Assembly: GCF_028330965.1 (NCBI RefSeq)
Contig: NZ_JAQMUB010000067.1
Coordinates: forward strand, 62,001-126,000
Length of the DNA stretch: 64,000 nucleotides
From: Oscillatoria sp. CS-180
GTDB taxonomy: Bacteria > Cyanobacteriota > Cyanobacteriia > Phormidesmidales > Phormidesmidaceae
Direction of reading: 5' to 3'
Shown: positions 13,439 to 24,689 of the stretch, one piece after another
Numbering within the stretch: position 1 is the stretch's first letter
How the letters are laid out: every line of letters starts with the position of its first letter
Translations under genes and position numbers: made by a program
The notes under the pieces: model-generated
The model's input: the letters and a program-made list of their open reading frames with translations, nothing else
The model's database searches: none
What the model was told of the DNA's origin: nothing

Positions 13439-14947
13439 ATGACTCTTTTATATAATCGCTTGCAAATATCTTTCTTGGCGTCTCTACCATGCGCCTTACT
13501 GATGGCTCTAGCCCTCTGTTTGCCGGGATTGTCGCAATCGGCACCGCTGCCTGATTTGGCTCCTATCGATGAGCGATCATTCCCTAGCATTGATAATGAG
13601 CCGGTCGTTGATAGTGAGCCAGTCGTTACAGAATCGGTCACCGATGGGTACGTGCTTGGTGCGGGCGATCGTCTGAGCGTTGAAGTATTCCGTATCCCCG
13701 AATACAGCGGCGAGTATGAAGTCCTAGTCAGCGGACGATTGAGCCTGCCTATGGTGGGCCAAGTTCCAGTTGCTGGGTTAACTTTGCAACAGGCTCAGGC
13801 CAAAATATCTGAAGCCTACGCAGCGCGGCTCCGACGACCCATCATCAATCTCTCACTCGTCGAGCCACGTCCTCTAAGAATCGGCATTGCAGGAGAGGTC
13901 ACCCATCCGGGCTCATACGTTTTAGAGCGCGAAGGAACCCAGTTTCCCTCATTAATATCGGCGCTGGAAATGGCAGGTGGTGTGACCCAATCGGCAGATT
14001 TAAGGCAAATTGTGGTGACGAGGACAGGGGGCAGCGTCACGGAGGAAGTTTTGGTCACTGACCTCTGGGAGTTCTTGCAGACCGGAGACCTACGCTATAA
14101 CCTAGACCTGCGCGATGGCGACACGGTCTTTATCCCGACCAGAGAAACCTTTGACCCAAATGAGTCACTTCAATTAGCTGCTGCTAGCTTTGCCGCCGAT
14201 GAAAGTCGTCCACTGAATATCGTGATTATTGGCGAAGTCTTCAGACCTGGGCCTTATACCGTTACTGGGACTGCTCGAACAGGGGAAGCGGGCGTCCCTG
14301 GAGGAACAGGAGGTGCTAGCATCCCCCCTACCGTGACCCGAGCGATTCAGGTTGCGGGGGGGATTAAGCCAGATGCCGATATTCGCGGAGTGGAAATCTA
14401 TCGAAGAACTCGTAATGGAGAAGAACAGCGGATTGGTGTTAATCTCTGGGAACTCCTGGCAGAAGGGCAGATTACTCAAGATATCGTGCTGCAAGAGGGG
14501 GATACGGTCTTTATCCCGGAAGCAGAAAATATTCCACCGGAAGAACTGGCTGAAATAGCGGCAGCTAGCTTTTCTCCAGATACCATTCGGATCAACGTCG
14601 TGGGTGAAGTTGAAAGCCCTGGCGTGGTTGAGGTGCCGCCTAACACTCCCCTAAGCCAGGGAATTTTGGCGGCGGGCGGATTTGACAGTCGGCGAGCAAG
14701 AACAACTGATGTTGACCTAATTCGCCTTAATCCTAATGGGACAGTAACCCGTAGTTCTGTTCCTGTTGACTTTGCGGCAGGCATCAATGACGAAACCAAC
14801 CCGACGCTCCGAAATAATGATGTGATTGTCGTGAATCGATCAACATCAGCCAGCATTGCCGACACTCTAGACACAGTGGTGGTACCTTTGGGTAGAGTAT
14901 TCAGTCTATTTACAATACCGACATCATTTATCCGACTGTTTGATTAG
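13439..14947 (+). CDS. polysaccharide export protein, Wza-like (Poly_export plus SLBB domains)
   Basis: The 502-residue protein has a signal peptide (hydrophobic core at about 15-32, ending GLSQSA). A Poly_export domain follows at about 68-145 (YVLGAGDRLSVEVFRIPEYS, RLSLPMVGQVPVAGLTLQQA). Then come three SLBB-type repeats, each opening with a G-E-V motif: IGIAGEVTHPGSY, IVIIGEVFRPGPY and INVVGEVESPGVV. Proteins of this family form the outer-membrane and periplasmic channel for capsule or exopolysaccharide export. The tyrosine autokinase partner follows 110 bp downstream on the same strand, the usual Wza-Wzc order. No glycosyltransferase genes are next to them. The 3' end lies in a 32-bp tandem duplication that repeats the last ten codons and stop. 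Confidence 0.9.
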   Translation: MTLLYNRLQISFLASLPCALLMALALCLPGLSQSAPLPDLAPIDERSFPSIDNEPVVDSEPVVTESVTDGYVLGAGDRLSVEVFRIPEYSGEYEVLVSGRLSLPMVGQVPVAGLTLQQAQAKISEAYAARLRRPIINLSLVEPRPLRIGIAGEVTHPGSYVLEREGTQFPSLISALEMAGGVTQSADLRQIVVTRTGGSVTEEVLVTDLWEFLQTGDLRYNLDLRDGDTVFIPTRETFDPNESLQLAAASFAADESRPLNIVIIGEVFRPGPYTVTGTARTGEAGVPGGTGGASIPPTVTRAIQVAGGIKPDADIRGVEIYRRTRNGEEQRIGVNLWELLAEGQITQDIVLQEGDTVFIPEAENIPPEELAEIAAASFSPDTIRINVVGEVESPGVVEVPPNTPLSQGILAAGGFDSRRARTTDVDLIRLNPNGTVTRSSVPVDFAAGINDETNPTLRNNDVIVVNRSTSASIADTLDTVVVPLGRVFSLFTIPTSFIRLFD

Positions 14948-14979
14948 TACCGACATCATTTATCCGACTGTTTGATTAG
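14916..14979. repeat. perfect 32-bp tandem duplication spanning the stop codon
   Basis: The units 14916-14947 and 14948-14979 are identical (starting TACCGACATCATTTATCCGA, ending GTTTGATTAG). Unit 1 contains the last codons and the TAG stop of the export gene, and unit 2 lies just beyond. The perfect identity suggests a recent slip or duplication. The protein is unaffected because unit 1 keeps the stop. Confidence 0.95.
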
Positions 14980-15057
14980 TCCTGTTTCCTGACTCGGCTT
15001 GATTAGTGTTTCTACGCGAAATCTCTTAGAGATAGATATCACATAGGGTAAACCAGC

Positions 15058-17340
15058 ATGGTCTCCGAAAGTTCGCTACCACAATCAGCAATCGCAGTTC
15101 CCGCCTCGGAGCAAGAAGGTGGGCTGCAGTTGGGGCGTTTTGTGGGTGCTATCAAACGCCGTATGTTGATTGTGCTCGGCGTGACTACTTTGACGGCGTC
15201 AGCAGCCGTTCTGAAAGCAATCACTGATACACCTGTTTACAATGCAGGATTTGAACTGTTAACGCCACCCACTACCCTAGAGACGCAGATTATCTCAACT
15301 ATCAACGATGAGGCTCTTAGTAATCAATCTGAGCTATTTGACGTTGCTGTTGACGAGACAAAGCTCAAAATTCTTAAAAGCCCTCGTTTAATAGATCCAA
15401 TTCTCGTGGAGATTCAGCAGCGTTATCCTAATACAACGTACAACCAAGTTACCAGCAACCTCTCAATTAAGCCTGATCAGACCGGCAACACGCTCCACGT
15501 CAATTATACGAATACAGACCCTGAGAAAGTTGCTTATGCTTTAGAGATAATTGTCGAAGCCTACCTCAGCTACAGTTTGGAAGACAGGCAGAATGCGATT
15601 TTTCGGGGCATTGACTTTGTTGATGAGCAGCTTCCGGTCGCTCGACAACGAGTGGAAGAACTGGAGCGAGAGCTTGAAGGGCTGAGGCAAAGTGCCAATT
15701 TAATCGATCCCCTCGTGCAAGGGGAACAGCTATCGGAACAGGCTGCCCGATTTAATGCTGAGCAACTAGATTTGCAAGTTCAGATCCAAGAAGCTCAGGA
15801 TATCTACAATAATTTGCAGGCAGATCTCAACAATAGTGAGGAGTTTGCCGCGACGTCAGTGCTGTTGGAGAGCGATCGCTACCAAGCCCTTCTAGACCAG
15901 ATTCTGGCAGTGGACAGTGAGCTTGCCGATCAGCTGACCCTCTATTTAGAAGACAGCCCCGAAATAGACGTGATTGAAGAGCGTCGTCAAAACCTTCAGC
16001 CGTTGCTCCAGCGAGAGGGCATCCGAGTACAGCGTCAGTTGGCAAACTATATTCAAGAATTGCAGGACCGCAATCGAGCTTTGAGTGAGACTATCGGGTC
16101 TCTCAATAATCAGATTAAGAATTTATCAACTACTGCCCGTGAATATGGCAGTATTCAGCGTGAACTGGATATCGCTTCAACCAATCTCAATCAGTTCTTG
16201 ACTAAACGTGAAGCCTTGAGAATTGATGCCGCTCAAAGACAGACACCTTGGGAAATTTTGACACCGCCCTCTGCTCCTAAGGCTTCAGTAGCAAGCGCTA
16301 AGCGTAATCTAGTGCTAGGCGTTGTCTTGGGTGTTCTTTTAGGATCAGGTACTGCAATTATCATCGATCGCTTCGCAGGCAAAATTTATACGATAGAGGA
16401 ACTGAAGGAAGCTGTAGGGCCAGGAATTCCGCTTTTAGCTGTCATTCCCTATGAGAAGCTTTTAGAAGGAGAGCATTCTCTGGCAAGTTCTCTGAGCCAG
16501 CTGAGCCAGTTAGGATTCAACACTCGCTTCTTCTCCTCTAATGGAGAGGGTAACAATGGTCAAAAATCCGTTTCAACTCCCTTTTTGGAAGCCTTCAGGA
16601 TTTTAAGCACTAACGTTCAGTTGAGTAGTCCAGATAACCCGATCACCTCGTTCGCGGTGAGTTCAGCGATTCCAAACATGGGTAAGAGCACGATCACTTT
16701 CCACCTTGCTCATGCGATGGCTACGACGGGGCGCAGGGTTTTAATGATTGATGCCGATTTGAGACGTCCCACACTGCATAAGCTCTGCAATGTTTCCAAC
16801 GAAGTTGGGGTCTCGAATTACATTTCTAGTGATATTGAGATTAAAGAAGCTATCTCCGATGTGCCTATTGATCCAAATCTATTTTTAATGTCGTCAGGTC
16901 CCATGCCACCGGATCCCATCAAAATATTGACGGCTCAGCGCATGAAAAATCTGTTGGCATTTGCTCAAGACAACTTTGACGTTGTCATCTTCGATACTCC
17001 ACCTATTCTGGGATTCGCCGATGCCCTGGTTCTTGCCGCGTATACTCAAGGCGTTCTATTGACTGCGACGTTAGGAGAAATTAAGTTTGCTCAAATGCAG
17101 ATGGCTCTTGATGAACTCAATGTTGCCAAGGTTTTCCCATTGGGGCTGGTTGCCAATGGCTCCAAACAAGAGAGCCAAACACGTTATAGCTATTATCAGT
17201 ACTATCGTGAAGATAGAATTGACACGACTTCCCCGAACTCTAAGTATCATCTCGACGGTTCCCAAAAGCCTAAAAAAGAAGTTTCTGGCTCCAAAAATCC
17301 ACTCAGTTCTTTAGGGAAGAGTTTCAAAAATCGGCGTTGA
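15058..17340 (+). CDS. Wzc-like polysaccharide co-polymerase / tyrosine autokinase
   Basis: The 760-residue protein has a Wzz-type N-terminus with membrane helix 1 at about 34-50 and a long coiled coil at about 185-370. Membrane helix 2 is at about 418-437 (NLVLGVVLGVLLGSGTAIII). A C-terminal BY-kinase domain follows: Walker A about 538-548 (PNMGKSTI), Walker A' VLMIDADLRRPT and Walker B VVIFDTPP. A tyrosine-rich tail YSYYQYYRED near residue 710 is the expected autophosphorylation cluster. Such proteins control chain length and export of exopolysaccharide with the Wza-like channel encoded just upstream. The start at 15058 has an AGGG-type ribosome site. Confidence 0.92.
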   Translation: MVSESSLPQSAIAVPASEQEGGLQLGRFVGAIKRRMLIVLGVTTLTASAAVLKAITDTPVYNAGFELLTPPTTLETQIISTINDEALSNQSELFDVAVDETKLKILKSPRLIDPILVEIQQRYPNTTYNQVTSNLSIKPDQTGNTLHVNYTNTDPEKVAYALEIIVEAYLSYSLEDRQNAIFRGIDFVDEQLPVARQRVEELERELEGLRQSANLIDPLVQGEQLSEQAARFNAEQLDLQVQIQEAQDIYNNLQADLNNSEEFAATSVLLESDRYQALLDQILAVDSELADQLTLYLEDSPEIDVIEERRQNLQPLLQREGIRVQRQLANYIQELQDRNRALSETIGSLNNQIKNLSTTAREYGSIQRELDIASTNLNQFLTKREALRIDAAQRQTPWEILTPPSAPKASVASAKRNLVLGVVLGVLLGSGTAIIIDRFAGKIYTIEELKEAVGPGIPLLAVIPYEKLLEGEHSLASSLSQLSQLGFNTRFFSSNGEGNNGQKSVSTPFLEAFRILSTNVQLSSPDNPITSFAVSSAIPNMGKSTITFHLAHAMATTGRRVLMIDADLRRPTLHKLCNVSNEVGVSNYISSDIEIKEAISDVPIDPNLFLMSSGPMPPDPIKILTAQRMKNLLAFAQDNFDVVIFDTPPILGFADALVLAAYTQGVLLTATLGEIKFAQMQMALDELNVAKVFPLGLVANGSKQESQTRYSYYQYYREDRIDTTSPNSKYHLDGSQKPKKEVSGSKNPLSSLGKSFKNRR

Positions 17341-17514: not shown

Positions 17515-20385
17515 TTAGGCAAGTTGCCGTTTTGCCAGTTGTTGAAACAAACCGGGCTGAGAAACCAGTTCTTCAAAATTGCCCTGCTGGACCAAACGGC
17601 CTGCTTCAATGACGTAGATGCGATCAGCGTCGCGAATGGTGCTGAGACGGTGGGCAACAACAACTCGCGTCACGTTGAGATGATTCAGGCTGTCCGTCAC
17701 GATCGCCTGTGTCCGGTTATCCAATGCACTTGTTGCCTCATCCATCAGCATAATCTTGGGATTGACGGCCAGCGATCGCGCAATCAAGAGCCTTTGTCGC
17801 TGTCCCCCTGAGAGGTTGCTGCCGCCCTCGCTGACCACCGTATGCATCTGCATCGGCATGGCGCGAATATCGTCTGCCAATCCGGCTTTTTCTGCTGCAT
17901 CCCAAGCATTTTCCAAAGAAATTAGCGCACCGCCTGCCAAGTTCTCAAAGATAGACCCAGCGCTGAGGCGACTCGTTTGCAGCACAACTCCAAACTGGCG
18001 ACGGACAGCGACTAAATCCAAGCCTGACAGATCCTGTCCGTCATAGTACACGCTGCCGGATTCTGGACTGTCAAATCCCAGCAGCAACCGCATCGCAGTT
18101 GATTTTCCTGACCCCGACGGACCGACTAACGCGATAAATTCTCCAGGTTTAGCGGCAAAGCTAACACTGTCCAGAATTAGCGGACCGTTTGAAGCATAAC
18201 GGAAGCTGACTCGATCCGCCTGAAGGGATCCCGACAGCTGACCTGGGTCGTTTTTGGATAGATTGACTTCAGGCTCAGCGTGAAGAATGGGCTGTGCTCG
18301 CTGCCAGAGCGGCACGATATCTAACAGTTCAACTAGGGTATTGCTGAGGCTGGTTGCCCCTGAGATAAAAATACCGAAGGCAACTGAAAACGCCAGAAAT
18401 TCTCCCGTCGATAGCCCCCCATTCACGGTTGGATCGATGAACTGACTGGCCAACCAAAAGAGAATCAGCGTCGTCAAAATGGGCAGAACTGTGTTGAAAA
18501 CATCAACTGAATCTTCCAATTGCTGCGTGCTTAGAGTGAGTCGAAGTTGTTGCCCATACTGCTGACCCCAGGTAGCAAACGCCCGTTCCTCAGCTCCCGC
18601 AATCCGCAGCTTAGAGACGCCGTTGATGAGCTGTACCAACAACCCATAGAGCTTGCCCTGCATTTCCAACAGCGGACGGTACTTGCGCACTAAAACCAGG
18701 CCAGATGACACTGTGACACCCACAATGACGACGGCAACAACCAGTGCAATTAAGGCAAGAGTTGGGCTGTAGTAAAACAAAAGGCCCAAGTTGAGCAAGG
18801 CAAACGCACCTGACAAGATGCCCTGGAGGGCCGACCCGCTGAGCTTGCGGCGAATAGCACTGATGCTGGAGACTCTTGAGTTGAGGTCTCCTGTTGCATA
18901 TTGGCGGTAGAAGGAGGGCCGCAGCTTCAGCAACCGATCCCAGACCGCAGCCTGCAAATGAGCATCGGAAGCTGTTTCGACTCGTAGAGTTGCGATCGCT
19001 TGAGCCAGCTGAAAAACGGCAGCTCCAAACGCTGCTGCCAGTAACCCAATGCCAATCTGTACCAGCAAAGTACGATCGCCATAAGGCACAACAGTATCAA
19101 CCAGTGCCGCCGTCGCTTGGGGCACCAACATGCCAATCAGCGTGGCAGCGACCCCAGTTAGCACAATAGTGAGCCAATCCTTGGTCTGTCCCCGAAAGGC
19201 AAACGTCAATAGTGACCAGGCGTTGAGGTTGCTAGTCGGTAGAGGACGGTAGAAGATGAAAGCAACCGGATCGAGCGTGTTGGCGATCGCATCCGTCACC
19301 AAGTTGTGCCCTGTGAGTGACTCCTTGGTCTTAGGCTTGACCGGATCAAACAATTCATAGCCCTTATTGCCAGCGGGAAGCAGTGCCACTGGATGACGAT
19401 CTTCTCGCGTATAGGCCACTAAGGGACCACTGTCTTTCTGCCACCATTGGCCTCGTAAGAGAACTCGTCGCAGTCGTAGCTGAGAAGCACGGGCAATCGC
19501 CTCTAGCGGTTCCTTCACACGGGCTGTATTTTCGGACGCCGCCGGCGGTTCAATCCTGACGCCCAAGACATGCCCGACAGCCCCTGCTGCGGCTAAAAGA
19601 GGAGATTCAATATCCCGCCAAGGATCGTCCTGCTCCAAAACGCCAGCTAGCTTGCTGACCACATTTTGAGTGACGTCTTGATTGAGTTGTTGCCGCTGCT
19701 GAAAGCGCCGCAGACTCAATCGCTGACGAAGAGTCTCAATCTGCTCCAACGTCATGAAGAAGTAGATGTGGAGTTGCTTCAGCCCTCGAATCAAGATTTT
19801 ACGGTTCTTGACCTCAGCCGTAGGCCGAATAAAAAACTCAATGTGATCCTGTGCTTGCAAAAACATGCAGTGCCCCAGCGGGAAGCAGCCCAGCTCAGCT
19901 ACTAGAGAGAGCGCTGGATTTCCCATCCAATAAGCTGTTCCCTGCTGCATTCGGACCCAAGACACGTCTCCATCAGGTGGACGACAGACCTGACCAGAGA
20001 CTAAAGAAATATAGTGAATGTCCGGTGTCACTCCGGTCTGAGCCGTATGGGGCATGCCATCAAGTTGTCCGAGCTGATGAATCCAGGGATCGATCAGCTG
20101 TTTAAGGTCGTTGGTGGGGACTGTCGTCTCATCGTCTTCGACTAAGGGGAATGGAGTGACTTCTGAAGGTTCGGAGGCGATCGCCAACAGACCCAAGCCC
20201 GTTTTAGGGCAGACATCAGCGCTGAACAAGGCACCGCCGACCTCTACTACAAATAGAAAGCGGCGACGACCCGCCGGTTTGCCATCTATAAAAGTCGTGG
20301 CAAAGACCGCCATTTTGCCAGAGTCGATCACCCACATTTGGGAGGGTTGGGTGAGTAATAGGGGCTGGTTCGCAGTAACGTGCAT
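17515..20385 (-). CDS. NHLM/NHLP-type peptide export ABC transporter, permease/ATPase subunit
   Basis: The 956-residue protein has a long N-terminal region (about 1-390, including a part resembling a degenerate cNMP-type sensor: LLLTQPSQMWVIDSGKMAVF). Six membrane helices follow (about 395-650), then an ABC ATPase with Walker A at about 755-765 (VGPSGSGKST), signature LSGGQRQRLLIARSL and Walker B IMLMDEATSALD. This architecture defines the second ATPase of NHLM bacteriocin systems (family knowledge: export of ribosomal peptides with Nif11- or nitrile-hydratase-like leaders). It starts 1 bp after the stop of the C39-ABC gene with a strong AGGGAGGAGG site, so the two are made together. It is the last gene of the operon. 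Confidence 0.9.
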   Translation of the reverse strand: MHVTANQPLLLTQPSQMWVIDSGKMAVFATTFIDGKPAGRRRFLFVVEVGGALFSADVCPKTGLGLLAIASEPSEVTPFPLVEDDETTVPTNDLKQLIDPWIHQLGQLDGMPHTAQTGVTPDIHYISLVSGQVCRPPDGDVSWVRMQQGTAYWMGNPALSLVAELGCFPLGHCMFLQAQDHIEFFIRPTAEVKNRKILIRGLKQLHIYFFMTLEQIETLRQRLSLRRFQQRQQLNQDVTQNVVSKLAGVLEQDDPWRDIESPLLAAAGAVGHVLGVRIEPPAASENTARVKEPLEAIARASQLRLRRVLLRGQWWQKDSGPLVAYTREDRHPVALLPAGNKGYELFDPVKPKTKESLTGHNLVTDAIANTLDPVAFIFYRPLPTSNLNAWSLLTFAFRGQTKDWLTIVLTGVAATLIGMLVPQATAALVDTVVPYGDRTLLVQIGIGLLAAAFGAAVFQLAQAIATLRVETASDAHLQAAVWDRLLKLRPSFYRQYATGDLNSRVSSISAIRRKLSGSALQGILSGAFALLNLGLLFYYSPTLALIALVVAVVIVGVTVSSGLVLVRKYRPLLEMQGKLYGLLVQLINGVSKLRIAGAEERAFATWGQQYGQQLRLTLSTQQLEDSVDVFNTVLPILTTLILFWLASQFIDPTVNGGLSTGEFLAFSVAFGIFISGATSLSNTLVELLDIVPLWQRAQPILHAEPEVNLSKNDPGQLSGSLQADRVSFRYASNGPLILDSVSFAAKPGEFIALVGPSGSGKSTAMRLLLGFDSPESGSVYYDGQDLSGLDLVAVRRQFGVVLQTSRLSAGSIFENLAGGALISLENAWDAAEKAGLADDIRAMPMQMHTVVSEGGSNLSGGQRQRLLIARSLAVNPKIMLMDEATSALDNRTQAIVTDSLNHLNVTRVVVAHRLSTIRDADRIYVIEAGRLVQQGNFEELVSQPGLFQQLAKRQLA

Positions 20386-20386
20386 G

Positions 20387-22633
20387 TCATCCTCCTCCCT
20401 GTTGAATCAATTGCTGGTACCGTCCCCCTTCTTCCCACAGGCTTTGGTGAGTGCCGCGCTGGACGATTTTTCCCCGGTCAAGCACGAGAATCTCGTCGCA
20501 GTCTCGAATGGTGCTGAGACGGTGGGCCACGATGATGCAGGTGCATCCCCGGCGGCGTAGATTTTGGTCAATACGCTTTTCCGTTTCGGTATCGAGAGCA
20601 CTCGTCGCCTCATCGAGAATCAGAATCGACGGGTTGCCGACTAGGGCACGGGCAATCTCAAGCCGCTGTCGCTGGCCACCGCTCAAGTTTGAAGCCCCTT
20701 CCAAAAGCTGAGCATCATACCCGTTGGGCTGAGCGACGATGACATCTGCGATCGCGGCATCCTGAGCTGCTTTATGGATGTCGGCAGTGGGAATTGTTGT
20801 GTCCCAAAGCGTCAGATTGTCTCGAATTGGACCTTCGAAAATCAAAATGTCCTGTTCGATTACCGCAATGGAGTTCGTCAATACGTTGCGAGGGATCTGA
20901 CTACGGGGAATATTGTCAAAGCAAATGTCGCCTGATCGCGGCTCATACAGTCCCGCAATCACCTTTGCCAAAGTAGACTTGCCGGAACCACTGCCGCCCA
21001 CAAACGCCACTCGCTGCCCAGGTTGAATCGAAAGGTTGAGATTCTCAATCAAGGGAGCTTCTAGCGGATGGTAACCAAAGGAAATGTTCTTGAGGGTGAC
21101 AGAGCCAACGAGGCGGTGAGGGACGGAGGGATGAAGGGATAGGGCTGTGGGAATTGAGGTTTCGGATGTCGTGGGTTCCTCAGAGCTGTCTTTCGGTTGT
21201 CTCGGGTCCTGAAGCTGTCTATCAACATCGTTGGCGAGTACGTCGTTGAGGCGCTGTAGATTACCCTGCAGGGTTTGTAGGGTACTGGCAAACCGGACGA
21301 GGCGATTAACGGGGCGCTGAAAGCTCACCATCAGCAGTTGAAAGGCGACAAGCATCCCGATACTAAGTTCACCGTTGATGACGCGCCAACCGCCAACAAC
21401 CAAAAGAGCCAAATTACTGAGGGCGGAGAGGAGGGAGGGCAAAATGCCGAGCGTTTGGTTGGTCAGGCCGAGGGCTTGTTGGGCATTGATGGCTTTGGTG
21501 TAGTAGCCTGCCCAGCGAGCGAAGAAGTCAGACTCCAACCCTGAGGCTTTGATCGTTTCAATGCTCTGAAGACCCGCGATCGCTACCCCTGCGGCCTTAC
21601 CCTGATCTTGAGACAGTCGCAGATTGGCATCCGTTCGTTGGCGACCAATCCACTGCAAAACCACCACGTTAACAATGGCAAACCCAACGGTGATTGCCGT
21701 CAGCAGCAAGTCATACTGGGCCATTGCCAGCATATAGAACAGCAATAATAAAAAACTGATCACTGTTGTCGTGAGTCGTCCGGAGAGAACAGCCGCGACC
21801 TCATCGTTCAGGCGAATCCGGTTCGCAATTTCTCCAGCAAACCGCTGGGCATAGAAACCGACTGGAAGGCGCAGGACGTGCCAGACAAAGCGACTGGTCA
21901 TGCCAACGGCTAGTTTGACCCGTAGCGATCGCAGATATTGTCGCTGAAGTGCTGTCAGCCAGCCCTGAGTAACGGCGATTATTAGCAGACCCAGCAGCAA
22001 ATAGGGCACCCACTCCAACCGGCCACCTACTAGGACAGAATCGACAAACACGCGACTCAGCGCCGGCAGCACCAGCGCCGGCAGCACCAGAAAGAGACCT
22101 GCGATGATTGCCAGCAGTAACGCCCCTTTGGAGGTTTGCAGACGACCCCAGAGCGATCGCACTAAGTTTTCCGTCTGTCCACCGGGTTGAAATGATGCCT
22201 CTGGCTCAAATGTGAGGGCGACACCTGTATACCCCTCGTCAAACTCTTCATGGGTAATCCGACGCGGCCCCGTTGCTGGGTCATTCAGGTAGACCCATTG
22301 AGGAGTAAACCCCTCGACGACTAGAAAGTGATTGAAGTGCCAGAACACAATGAACGGGGGCGGCAATAACATGACCCGCTCTAGGCTCTTTTTAAACCCC
22401 TTAGCATCCAGGCCATAGCTGCGAGCGGCTTTGAGCAGACTGGCTGCGGTAACCCCATCCCGTGATACTCCACAAGTTTGCCTCAATTGGGCTAGCGGTA
22501 CGGTTCTACCGTGATAGCCCAGGATGGTCCCTAATGCCGCTGCCCCACATTCCACTGCCTCCATTTGCAGCACGGTGGGCGTTTTGACCCGCTTAGAAGA
22601 AGAACGAACGGCTTGTTTTGGAAAAATCAGCAT
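20387..22633 (-). CDS. NHLM/NHLP-type peptide export ABC transporter with C39 leader peptidase
   Basis: The 748-residue protein begins with a C39 cysteine peptidase that has a complete triad: C29 (VECGAAALG), H102 (NHFLVVEGF) and D118 (YLNDPATGP). Six membrane helices (about 170-470) and an ATPase domain follow, with Walker A at about 540-550 (VGGSGSGKST), LSGGQRQRLEIARAL and ILDEATSALD. C39 transporters cut leaders directly after a Gly-Gly motif while pumping the core peptide out. A matching Gly-Gly peptide gene lies at 24519-24689, which makes it the obvious candidate substrate (inference). The gene is 22 bp behind the adaptor gene and 1 bp ahead of the second ABC gene, so these form a tight operon. 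Confidence 0.93.
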   Translation of the reverse strand: MLIFPKQAVRSSSKRVKTPTVLQMEAVECGAAALGTILGYHGRTVPLAQLRQTCGVSRDGVTAASLLKAARSYGLDAKGFKKSLERVMLLPPPFIVFWHFNHFLVVEGFTPQWVYLNDPATGPRRITHEEFDEGYTGVALTFEPEASFQPGGQTENLVRSLWGRLQTSKGALLLAIIAGLFLVLPALVLPALSRVFVDSVLVGGRLEWVPYLLLGLLIIAVTQGWLTALQRQYLRSLRVKLAVGMTSRFVWHVLRLPVGFYAQRFAGEIANRIRLNDEVAAVLSGRLTTTVISFLLLLFYMLAMAQYDLLLTAITVGFAIVNVVVLQWIGRQRTDANLRLSQDQGKAAGVAIAGLQSIETIKASGLESDFFARWAGYYTKAINAQQALGLTNQTLGILPSLLSALSNLALLVVGGWRVINGELSIGMLVAFQLLMVSFQRPVNRLVRFASTLQTLQGNLQRLNDVLANDVDRQLQDPRQPKDSSEEPTTSETSIPTALSLHPSVPHRLVGSVTLKNISFGYHPLEAPLIENLNLSIQPGQRVAFVGGSGSGKSTLAKVIAGLYEPRSGDICFDNIPRSQIPRNVLTNSIAVIEQDILIFEGPIRDNLTLWDTTIPTADIHKAAQDAAIADVIVAQPNGYDAQLLEGASNLSGGQRQRLEIARALVGNPSILILDEATSALDTETEKRIDQNLRRRGCTCIIVAHRLSTIRDCDEILVLDRGKIVQRGTHQSLWEEGGRYQQLIQQGGG

Positions 22634-22655
22634 GACAGCGACCCTAAAACCAGGC

Positions 22656-23231
22656 TTAACGGTCTAGAAATGGGAACACGAAGGCGATGGGAGCGCGTTC
22701 TTCAAGGGTGATGCGTCCCTGCACTCTAACCCCAGCAACGATAGTGTTGGGTGGCATGGCGCTGTCCATCGGGGAAAGCTGAGCCAAAACTTCTAGTCGT
22801 CCGTCCTCCCGAGTTTCTGATTCCAGTTCAACTTGACGGGCCTGCTCAAGCGTTAGCGCAGGCGATTCCAAAACCTCTACAATTTCGGCCTGGAGTCCCG
22901 GCTCGTTGTAAATCAGTAGCGTTTCAGGCGTGAGAACGACAGGCATGCCCGGACGAAACTGACCTCGATAGCGATTGTCAAAGTGTAGAAGGGCCACTAG
23001 ATGACCTGTGTCTTGCTCGTCTTGGACTAACATGCCACGACCGTTTGTCGTGATGGGAATGCGTCCTATCCAACTCCAGATCAGCCCTATTCCCAGCAAC
23101 AGGCACAATGCGCCCAAGGGCAGCCAAGTCCTCAAGTTGACAATGGTCATCAACTCGTCTAACCGTTCTGGAGAGGACAGCCGTTCTAGAGATTCCTGAC
23201 GGAACAGATCGTTTGCTTTCTCGTCAGCCAT
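22656..23231 (-). CDS. short HlyD-like adaptor of the NHLM-type exporter
   Basis: The start at the ATG 23231 gives 191 residues (MADEKANDLFRQESLERLSS) and overlaps the upstream gene by 8 bp. A frame open to 23414 would add 61 residues, but these lie wholly inside the upstream gene and look like nonsense. Features are the typical N-terminal FRQESLERLSSPERLDELM motif of NHLM secretion proteins, one membrane helix (about 35-55), and a beta-barrel-like tail (GRITLEERAPIAFVFPF). Family members usually have about 400 residues, with a lipoyl/coiled-coil hairpin between helix and barrel. That middle part is missing here. The protein may still link the transporter to the periplasm, but it is too short to reach the outer membrane in the usual way. 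Confidence 0.8.
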   Translation of the reverse strand: MADEKANDLFRQESLERLSSPERLDELMTIVNLRTWLPLGALCLLLGIGLIWSWIGRIPITTNGRGMLVQDEQDTGHLVALLHFDNRYRGQFRPGMPVVLTPETLLIYNEPGLQAEIVEVLESPALTLEQARQVELESETREDGRLEVLAQLSPMDSAMPPNTIVAGVRVQGRITLEERAPIAFVFPFLDR

Positions 23232-24276
23232 CTTGCGTAACTCCCAGTTGCGACAGCATCCAGTTGAATTTCTTAGCCCCTTCAGACATTTGCTGTAAGT
23301 CTTCCATGTCGAGCTCTTCGTCATGTTCCTCAATATCTGGAGGTCCAGCGTCTGAGTGAGGGTCAACCAGGCGAGTGCTAACCGTGTGCAGCAGTTCCAG
23401 AATCTCGATCGCAATCAGGCGATAGAACCGAGACGCAAAGCTATTGTCTGCCTGTAGTTTCGTCACGAGCGTCTGACGAGGAACCGCGTAAACAAGAGAC
23501 TCTTTGACAGCACGAATCGTCACAGGCAAGGGGCGAAAGTCCAAAAATGAGATAATGCCTGGCATACTTCCCTTTGAGAGGGTGGCAAAAGCTTTCTGGT
23601 CGCGAGTACTGTTTTCTAATCCCGAAAAGCACAAGTAGAGGGGATTGAATTTGCCCCCTGGAGAGGATATCGACATTTGCCCGTCGAGTAGAACATAAAG
23701 AGCGTCCACGGGGCGTCCTGCCTGCAAAAGCACTTTGTCGGCGGCGATCGCCTCTGTCGCACCAAACGAAGCCAGCCAATCAACGTCGCTATCCCGTAAC
23801 TCTCCGAAGACAGAGAGCACCTCTTTGACAGACCGCTCCCCCCAAAATCGAATCCGTTCAGGGTCTTCAAAGATGCGGCGCAATCGATCAGACAGCATAA
23901 TGGCGATTGCTCGGTGAAAGTGAGCGGCAAAGGCAATATCTTCCCGCAATTTTGCCTGCAATTCACTCACCGACATCGACATCACTAAAGAGGGTTCTGC
24001 CGTTGTTATGCAGTTAATTTCTGGCCTACCAAACAAAGGGCCAATACCAACAATTTCACCCTGAGTAAGCTGACCTATTGAAGTCTTTTGGGCATGAGAA
24101 TCAACAAAAGGCACAAAGCTTAAGTCAAACTTTCCTTCTATCAAGACGTAGATTGAATCAGTACCGTTACGGGAATCCAAGAGTTGATGACCTTCTGGAA
24201 TATGCGATCGCTTCCCATGGGTGATCATCCAGTCCAAGTCTGTATTGCTCAACTCTTGCAGCAAAGTATCTGTCAT
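23224..24276 (-). CDS. protein with two cyclic-nucleotide-binding-like domains, first gene of the exporter operon
   Basis: The 350-residue protein has two Crp-type beta-barrel domains at about 10-125 and 165-300. The motifs are IPEGHQLLDSRNGTDSIYVLIEGKF and VLLQAGRPVDALYVLLDGQM. An acidic C-terminal tail (EEHDEELDMEDLQQ) follows. There is no DNA-binding helix-turn-helix, so it is not a CRP-like transcription factor; it probably senses a ligand and acts on partner proteins. cNMP-binding proteins often accompany NHLM exporters in cyanobacteria (family knowledge). Neither domain shows an intact phosphate-binding cassette with the usual RxA, so nucleotide binding is doubtful. The ATG at 24276 is chosen over a TTG at 24279. 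Confidence 0.82.
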   Translation of the reverse strand: MTDTLLQELSNTDLDWMITHGKRSHIPEGHQLLDSRNGTDSIYVLIEGKFDLSFVPFVDSHAQKTSIGQLTQGEIVGIGPLFGRPEINCITTAEPSLVMSMSVSELQAKLREDIAFAAHFHRAIAIMLSDRLRRIFEDPERIRFWGERSVKEVLSVFGELRDSDVDWLASFGATEAIAADKVLLQAGRPVDALYVLLDGQMSISSPGGKFNPLYLCFSGLENSTRDQKAFATLSKGSMPGIISFLDFRPLPVTIRAVKESLVYAVPRQTLVTKLQADNSFASRFYRLIAIEILELLHTVSTRLVDPHSDAGPPDIEEHDEELDMEDLQQMSEGAKKFNWMLSQLGVTQDG

Positions 24277-24518
24277 CAAATAAAGTTGGGTGTGACTTGC
24301 ACAAGTATAGAAGTAAAAAGCGGAATGTTTCGCAACCTAATGAAAAAAGCAATCTTCTACAACAAAAGTCGCTACTGACTGTGATCCATCAACAGAGAAT
24401 ATCCCAAAGCATACATAAAATCGGGTTTTATCATAATTTAGAGAGCTATTTTTTCAGGCAGACAATTTTGATGAGTATGCCTATCTTTATAAATGTATTT
24501 TGTTTGGAGAAAATATAG

Positions 24519-24689
24519 ATGACTGAGCAAGCTAAGAAAGATGCCAATCCAAAAGGTGAACAGCTTTCGGATGATCAGCTAAAAGATGTTTCCGGTGGTG
24601 TAAATTTTGATGAGCTTCGCCGCGAAAATTTAGACAAAGATGCAACAAACTTTGATGAGCTTCGCCGTGAAAATCTAGACAAAGACTAG
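24519..24689 (+). CDS. double-glycine leader peptide with two identical 13-residue core repeats
   Basis: This short gene encodes 56 residues. Its ATG follows TTTGGAGAAAATATAG, a good ribosome site. The leader GEQLSDDQLKDVSGG (13-27) fits the double-glycine consensus (LS..EL..VSGG) cut by C39 transporters. The predicted core of 29 residues is V, NFDELRRENLDKD, AT, NFDELRRENLDKD. It is strongly charged, has no Cys, Ser or aromatic residue other than Phe, and each 13-mer has a net charge of about -2. The gene is divergent from the exporter operon across 242 bp. No lanthipeptide, YcaO, ATP-grasp, radical-SAM or peptidase gene is nearby, so the peptide may be exported unmodified or be modified by a distant enzyme. 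Possible roles are a signal peptide or a bacteriocin; sequence alone cannot decide. I do not recognise a named family for the core. Confidence 0.85.
   Translation: MTEQAKKDANPKGEQLSDDQLKDVSGGVNFDELRRENLDKDATNFDELRRENLDKD

Follow-up and report, generated by a model that had tools for sequence, protein, structure and literature searches.

Many double-glycine precursors beside cyanobacterial C39 exporters still have no assigned function. The closest described gene sets are the group V clusters, which combine a double CAP_ED/cNMP protein, an HlyD, a C39 ABC protein and a second ABC protein, with double-glycine precursors nearby that are often unannotated (Wang et al. 2011, PMC3140520). As far as the accessible text of that survey goes, the cores of these precursors are rich in Gly, Cys, Ser and Thr, and the word 'repeat' is absent from its main text. 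A second point of reference is the EbfG1-4/PteB system of Synechococcus elongatus, small double-glycine proteins secreted with a C39 transporter and shown to act in biofilm development and the matrix, not in killing; in the accessible portions of the papers concerned, the mature EbfGs are reported to be without homologues in other cyanobacteria (PMC4997328, PMC9981879).

The locus described here lies in a 64,000-nucleotide stretch of Oscillatoria sp. CS-180 DNA, the whole of which is referred to as the window. To judge from its sequence, the frame at 24519-24689 (+) is a real gene of a known kind, encoding a double-glycine peptide that is paired with an NHLM exporter of group V; comparison with other genomes sets it apart by the variant form of the exporter and by a link in sequence between the peptide and Sec-secreted repeat proteins. 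The initial annotation had described a 56-residue double-glycine gene with two identical NFDELRRENLDKD units, facing a complete, divergent export operon with an intact C39 triad; the reading frame bears out the former and profile scores and residues the latter, with the correction that the operon, complete as claimed, contains an additional HlyD gene (Table 1).

Table 1. Features of the exporter operon and of the divergent precursor gene, in positions of the window
Feature	Position	Strand	Basis
Bacteriocin-type transport-associated protein, two cNMP-binding domains	23224..24276	-	TIGR03896 209.7 bits (cut-off 161.05); PF00027, two stretches
Short NHLM-type HlyD, 191 aa, without middle coiled-coil part	22656..23231	-	Profile scores; family alignment A2
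NHLM ABC1: C39 peptidase, permease, ATPase; triad C29/H102/D118	20387..22633	-	TIGR and Pfam scores, residues read
NHLM ABC2: permease/ATPase without peptidase domain	17515..20385	-	TIGR and Pfam scores, residues read
Double-glycine leader, 27 codons	24519..24599	+	ORF translation; invariant residues in relatives
Core unit 1, NFDELRRENLDKD; V28 (24600-24602) before unit	24603..24641	+	ORF; unit also in Sec proteins L060-L067
Core unit 2, NFDELRRENLDKD; linker AT (24642-24647) before unit; stop codon 24687-24689	24648..24686	+	ORF; bases differing from unit 1: 4 synonymous, 0 nonsynonymous; protein identical

The operon, in the order double cNMP-binding protein (probably starting at the ATG at 24276), short HlyD, ABC1 and ABC2, fits the gene set of a group V cluster (PMC3140520). 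Both ABC subunits exceed their curated cut-offs (TIGR03796, 1103.1 bits vs 853.3; TIGR03797, 993.4 vs 709.4), the C39 domain of ABC1 scores 123 bits against PF03412 with all three triad residues present, and Walker A and LSGG are kept in both subunits. The HlyD falls below the full-length NHLM model TIGR03794 (71.6 vs 156.2 bits): its N-terminal TM segment aligns with the beginning of that model, its C-terminal part aligns with residues 366-493 of the genome's own full-length HlyD, and the middle region of a full NHLM HlyD is missing. This middle region normally holds the lipoyl and coiled-coil parts. HlyD proteins of short-HlyD clusters measure about 186-215 aa, and a search of 390 genomes with the short-HlyD profile gave matches in 58, among them some long HlyDs that match it only in part. 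The same genome carries a second NHLM cluster (L068, G000:C28) whose HlyD is full-length and whose three precursors are Nif11-like (ELSDDELEAVAGG with a hydrophobic core), an ordinary bacteriocin-type set that contrasts with the short-HlyD operon. Next to the exporter operon, beyond its ABC2 end and on the opposite strand, two genes (13439-17340) resemble, as read from sequence, a polysaccharide export protein and a Wzc-like chain-length/tyrosine kinase protein.

Preceded by a GGAG at 24506-24509, the precursor frame of 56 codons reads MTEQAKKDANPKGEQLSDDQLKDVSGG/VNFDELRRENLDKDATNFDELRRENLDKD, where the slash separates leader and core. The leader is of typical double-glycine type (L-12, S-11, L-7 and V-4, plus GG), and its residues S17, L21, G26 and G27 are invariant among 10 relatives and again in a comparison of 18. 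The precursor stays below the cut-offs of the double-glycine bacteriocin leader model TIGR01847 (12.7 vs 15.7 bits, a model that the relative L049 passes at 21.7 bits) and of the CTB family model NF038167 (14.5 vs 32 bits), and no NHLP/Nif11 leader domain was matched up to E 1. Its core of 29 residues, V + NFDELRRENLDKD + AT + NFDELRRENLDKD, is charged at 16 positions and has no hydrophobic and no Cys-rich stretch. Searches with the peptide gave no match among PDB, phages or plasmids and only insignificant matches to Pfam and PHROGs; neither the window nor the surroundings of this genome's Sec genes gave an Rfam RNA family, and no modification-enzyme gene was seen among the ORFs of about 14-31 kb, the Pfam scan covering the six genes nearest the peptide. 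AlphaFold models are helical only and of such low confidence (mean pLDDT 60.6 and 40.9) that they support no fold or assembly and are too weak for a fold search.

Across 59 related genomes, tblastn recovered leader-plus-core precursors in several (lowest E 3e-22); many other genes also contained the core unit. In the loci that were fetched, from carriers including Nodosilinea, Tildeniella, Leptolyngbya and Halomicronema, the relatives of the precursor adjoin the same operon, almost always divergently. In 31 of 46 loci an automatic scan picked up a precursor no more than 5 kb from the HlyD gene; for most of the others a precursor was read by eye near ABC1 or HlyD, the contig broke off at the start of the locus, or the search pattern fell short, and two loci (G250 and G157) had no visible precursor. 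One short-HlyD cluster (L366, G068) has a precursor whose core, SGSSNPDQLTEENTTDPMERFREMRRENRDK, shows no clear tandem repeat. The initial annotation had proposed a search for leader genes beside related exporters, whose absence was to count against it; the 31 loci leave it unrefuted on this point and also remove the label 'orphan' it had given the peptide, as do the eight other genes of the same genome that carry the unit. Apart from that label its interpretation is supported as far as secretion goes: a C39 exporter for a small peptide whose repeat core is charged and free of Cys. The core is at the same time the repeat unit of a multi-gene Sec-secreted family.

That family comprises, in this genome, at least eight dispersed genes (L060-L067) with Sec-type signal peptides (MKRIALALTALTA...AYA) followed by 3-8 recognised units of the NFDELRRENLDKD type; in the proteins of this lineage, termed lineage A, units mostly form dimers with spacers of about 8-9 residues between them. 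No common neighbours were found around the eight genes, only generic ABC-type ATPases, in one relative. Compared within genes, repeat units from 65 genes of many genomes have a mean pS of 0.82-0.83 against a pN of 0.07-0.16, and pS exceeds pN in all 65, with the proviso that picking units by motif limits pN. Synonymous sites being close to saturated, the units are of old origin and their protein sequence has been kept constant. The Sec unit nearest to the core in the window differs from it by a pS of 0.55, which argues against recent copying of DNA. Seven of the eight genes (L060-L066) are preceded by a conserved block of repeated CTCAG/TCAG-like boxes at roughly helical spacing and then a TATAGA-like probable -10 box, and these account for seven of the nine good copies in the genome. 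The other two copies (L128, G000:C30:139058, and L135, G000:C92:95053) are placed otherwise, one near a contig end with no repeat gene seen and the other ahead of a small unrelated ORF. Common regulation of the peptide gene and the Sec genes through this block was considered and rejected, the block being absent upstream of the peptide gene. A Sec repeat gene on a Halomicronema MAG contig (L096, 1279-2010) has in-frame stop codons and is possibly a pseudogene or an assembly error.

In other genera the exporter and leader are kept and the core differs. Five core classes were distinguished (A, FDELRRENLDKD; B, RLEHLDNQTK; C, SGRSAEEFKDGLGNK; D, RFxxARxxNLDK; E, PPSGDSNPSD), each with Sec proteins of the same genome that bear the matching unit. 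Thus genera g2 and g13 combine NKLHEQRLEHLDNQSK-type cores with Sec proteins containing RLEHLNNQTK-type repeats, in G038 three SGRSAEEFKDGLGNK-type units beside the exporter go with ten LTGRSADEFADGLGNK-type units in a Sec protein, and the cores of family f24 are either of the RFxxARxxNLDK kind or PPSGDSNPSDLNNPTVDTSDIINP, each with its matching Sec proteins. When the core of each genus was scored against the Sec proteins of all 16 genera, kinship being ignored and the Sec proteins having been found with core sequences as queries, the own-genome set ranked first for 12 of the 16, and the own pairing was reached by none of 200,000 permutations. Own pairing was also the single best of 720 arrangements for six related class D genera and of 40,320 for the eight f24 genera, where one query held all f24 cores and hence favoured no genome. 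For classes B and C the query was the own core, and class A queries gave few or no class A repeat genes there. Within lineage A alone the pairing was not distinguishable from chance (14 of 120 permutations) because all its members have one unit, and phylogeny could explain part of the co-divergence. Two precursor classes, EDGG and HDSGQY, have no Sec counterpart, searches having returned only the precursors themselves and weak matches. The Sec form was present in six of the eight peptide-bearing genomes checked; G032 and G073 have the peptide and gave no Sec form, and six genomes (G001, G004, G016, G021, G023 and G035) lack a short HlyD yet contain Sec-type matches. With several genomes Sec-only and a linkage of six in eight, two routes for one module fit better than an obligate two-part complex. 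As a pattern among genome sequences the link between core and Sec proteins is strong.

The architecture of the precursors bears on how they would be processed. In lineage A the core is one dimer, to which three precursors add a second leader-like segment and a second dimer, and in f24 tandem leader-plus-core arrays are common, with up to four copies, as would be expected if the C39 domain cuts at every Gly-Gly. Arrays of up to four copies, such as EDGGYRRQNPEGVGPTEGLLSDADLSTVSGG or HDSGQYSGELSDAELSQASGG, also occur in L277 (G256), L281 (G197), L274 and L278 (G147, G136) and L283 (G180), and for these cores no Sec counterpart was found. The predicted mature N-termini of Sec and exported products lie on the same unit boundary or a few residues away from it, the Sec site having been read by eye (AYA/VDFDQLRR vs GG/VDFDQLRQ; SA/LTERF vs GG/LTDRF).

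The explanation that we hold to be rather probable is that of one module delivered by two routes. The C39 domain of ABC1 would cut the precursor after Gly-Gly during export and free the 29-residue peptide, one dimer of the unit and thus a short, exporter-dependent form of the module, which the same cell would also make through the Sec pathway from its dispersed multi-copy genes. Both routes would bring the unit, with about the same N-terminal boundary, outside the inner membrane, and the first stop of both products is probably the periplasm, since the HlyD is without the part that normally reaches the outer-membrane channel; from what is known of HlyD adaptors, such a protein would hardly suffice by itself for a tunnel to the outer membrane, and the peptide may be released into the periplasm. 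There the two forms would meet each other or one common partner, and such a meeting would keep units matched within a genome and let them change between genera. A more tentative proposal concerns use: the products may form a self-associating envelope or matrix module, in which the short peptide, under its own control, would be a subunit, a cap or a competitor. A structural or adhesive use of this kind is favoured, as the many dispersed Sec genes with their varying numbers of units point to it, and the C39-exported matrix proteins of Synechococcus offer a possible precedent by analogy, within what the accessible text on EbfG describes.

The next best reading, which we consider possible and rather doubtful, is a peptide signal sent by two routes, with the unit as a lineage-specific ligand that proteases would free singly from multi-copy Sec precursors and that the C39 exporter would supply in a one- or two-unit version. 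Divergence of the unit between genera and its near constancy within a genome are what signal specificity would look like, tandem precursors are known from Phr pheromones (PMC11343458, in its accessible text), and tandem leader-plus-core arrays would yield one core per cut; against this, the units share no obvious common cleavage motif between them, those of classes C and D mostly abut directly and class A dimers are split by variable spacers, and eight or more dispersed Sec genes would be a large number for a signal. It seems improbable that the peptide is an ordinary unmodified (class II-like) bacteriocin or microcin leaving through a group V NHLM cluster, the Sec proteins being immunity decoys or unrelated. 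The names of the exporter families and the type of leader are those of bacteriocin systems (PMC3140520, as far as its accessible text goes), but both bacteriocin models miss the precursor and the core is identical to repeats that the cell itself secretes in many copies; its charged, non-hydrophobic character makes a pore-forming bacteriocin less likely, and nothing in these data speaks for killing. A chance ORF or low-complexity DNA repeat, which shortness and repetition might have suggested, is refuted by conservation and retains practically no probability: orthologues occupy the same place beside the exporter, and the two units differ by synonymous bases only.

Returning to the two-route module, the exporter cargo is here tied by sequence to a second gene family, Sec-secreted and encoded in the same genome, and its function thereby becomes approachable in a concrete way. 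Should the mirroring reflect recognition, nature would here offer repeat peptides that co-evolve in at least five different units. The tandem precursors would be examples of polyproteins that C39 peptidases cleave at more than one site. The literature search found no description of the core-Sec link or of a two-route repeat-peptide system, and nothing on this system among work on tandem double-glycine precursors, secreted repeats and the promoter motif, many subscription papers being outside its scope. We put at about even the proposal that this is an undescribed cyanobacterial system in which one unit travels by Sec, as many units from many genes, and by a C39/NHLM exporter with a truncated HlyD, as one to three units and sometimes arrays, the products recognising each other or one partner and this recognition driving their co-divergence.

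Among described families, the MXKDX repeat proteins (TIGR02953) are likewise small, secreted and rich in charged repeats, and one Sec relative (L091) passes that model at 50.2 vs 41 bits; the unit itself differs, having no Met here, and L062, L067 and the double-glycine peptide fail the cut-off. Tandemly duplicated Phr propeptides resemble the present precursors in holding several near-identical units in one chain, but they belong to Bacillota and their phages, are processed by extracellular proteolysis and act on known Rap receptors, with no C39 exporter described in the accessible text (PMC11343458). The EbfG/PteB system shares C39-exported double-glycine proteins in a cyanobacterium, yet in the accessible parts of its two reports no repeat unit or Sec counterpart is described for the EbfGs (PMC4997328, PMC9981879). 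Closest in gene content are the group V clusters, as presented in the available text of their survey (PMC3140520), from which the present system differs in that its cores are charged tandem repeats, its HlyD is truncated and its core unit recurs in Sec-secreted proteins.
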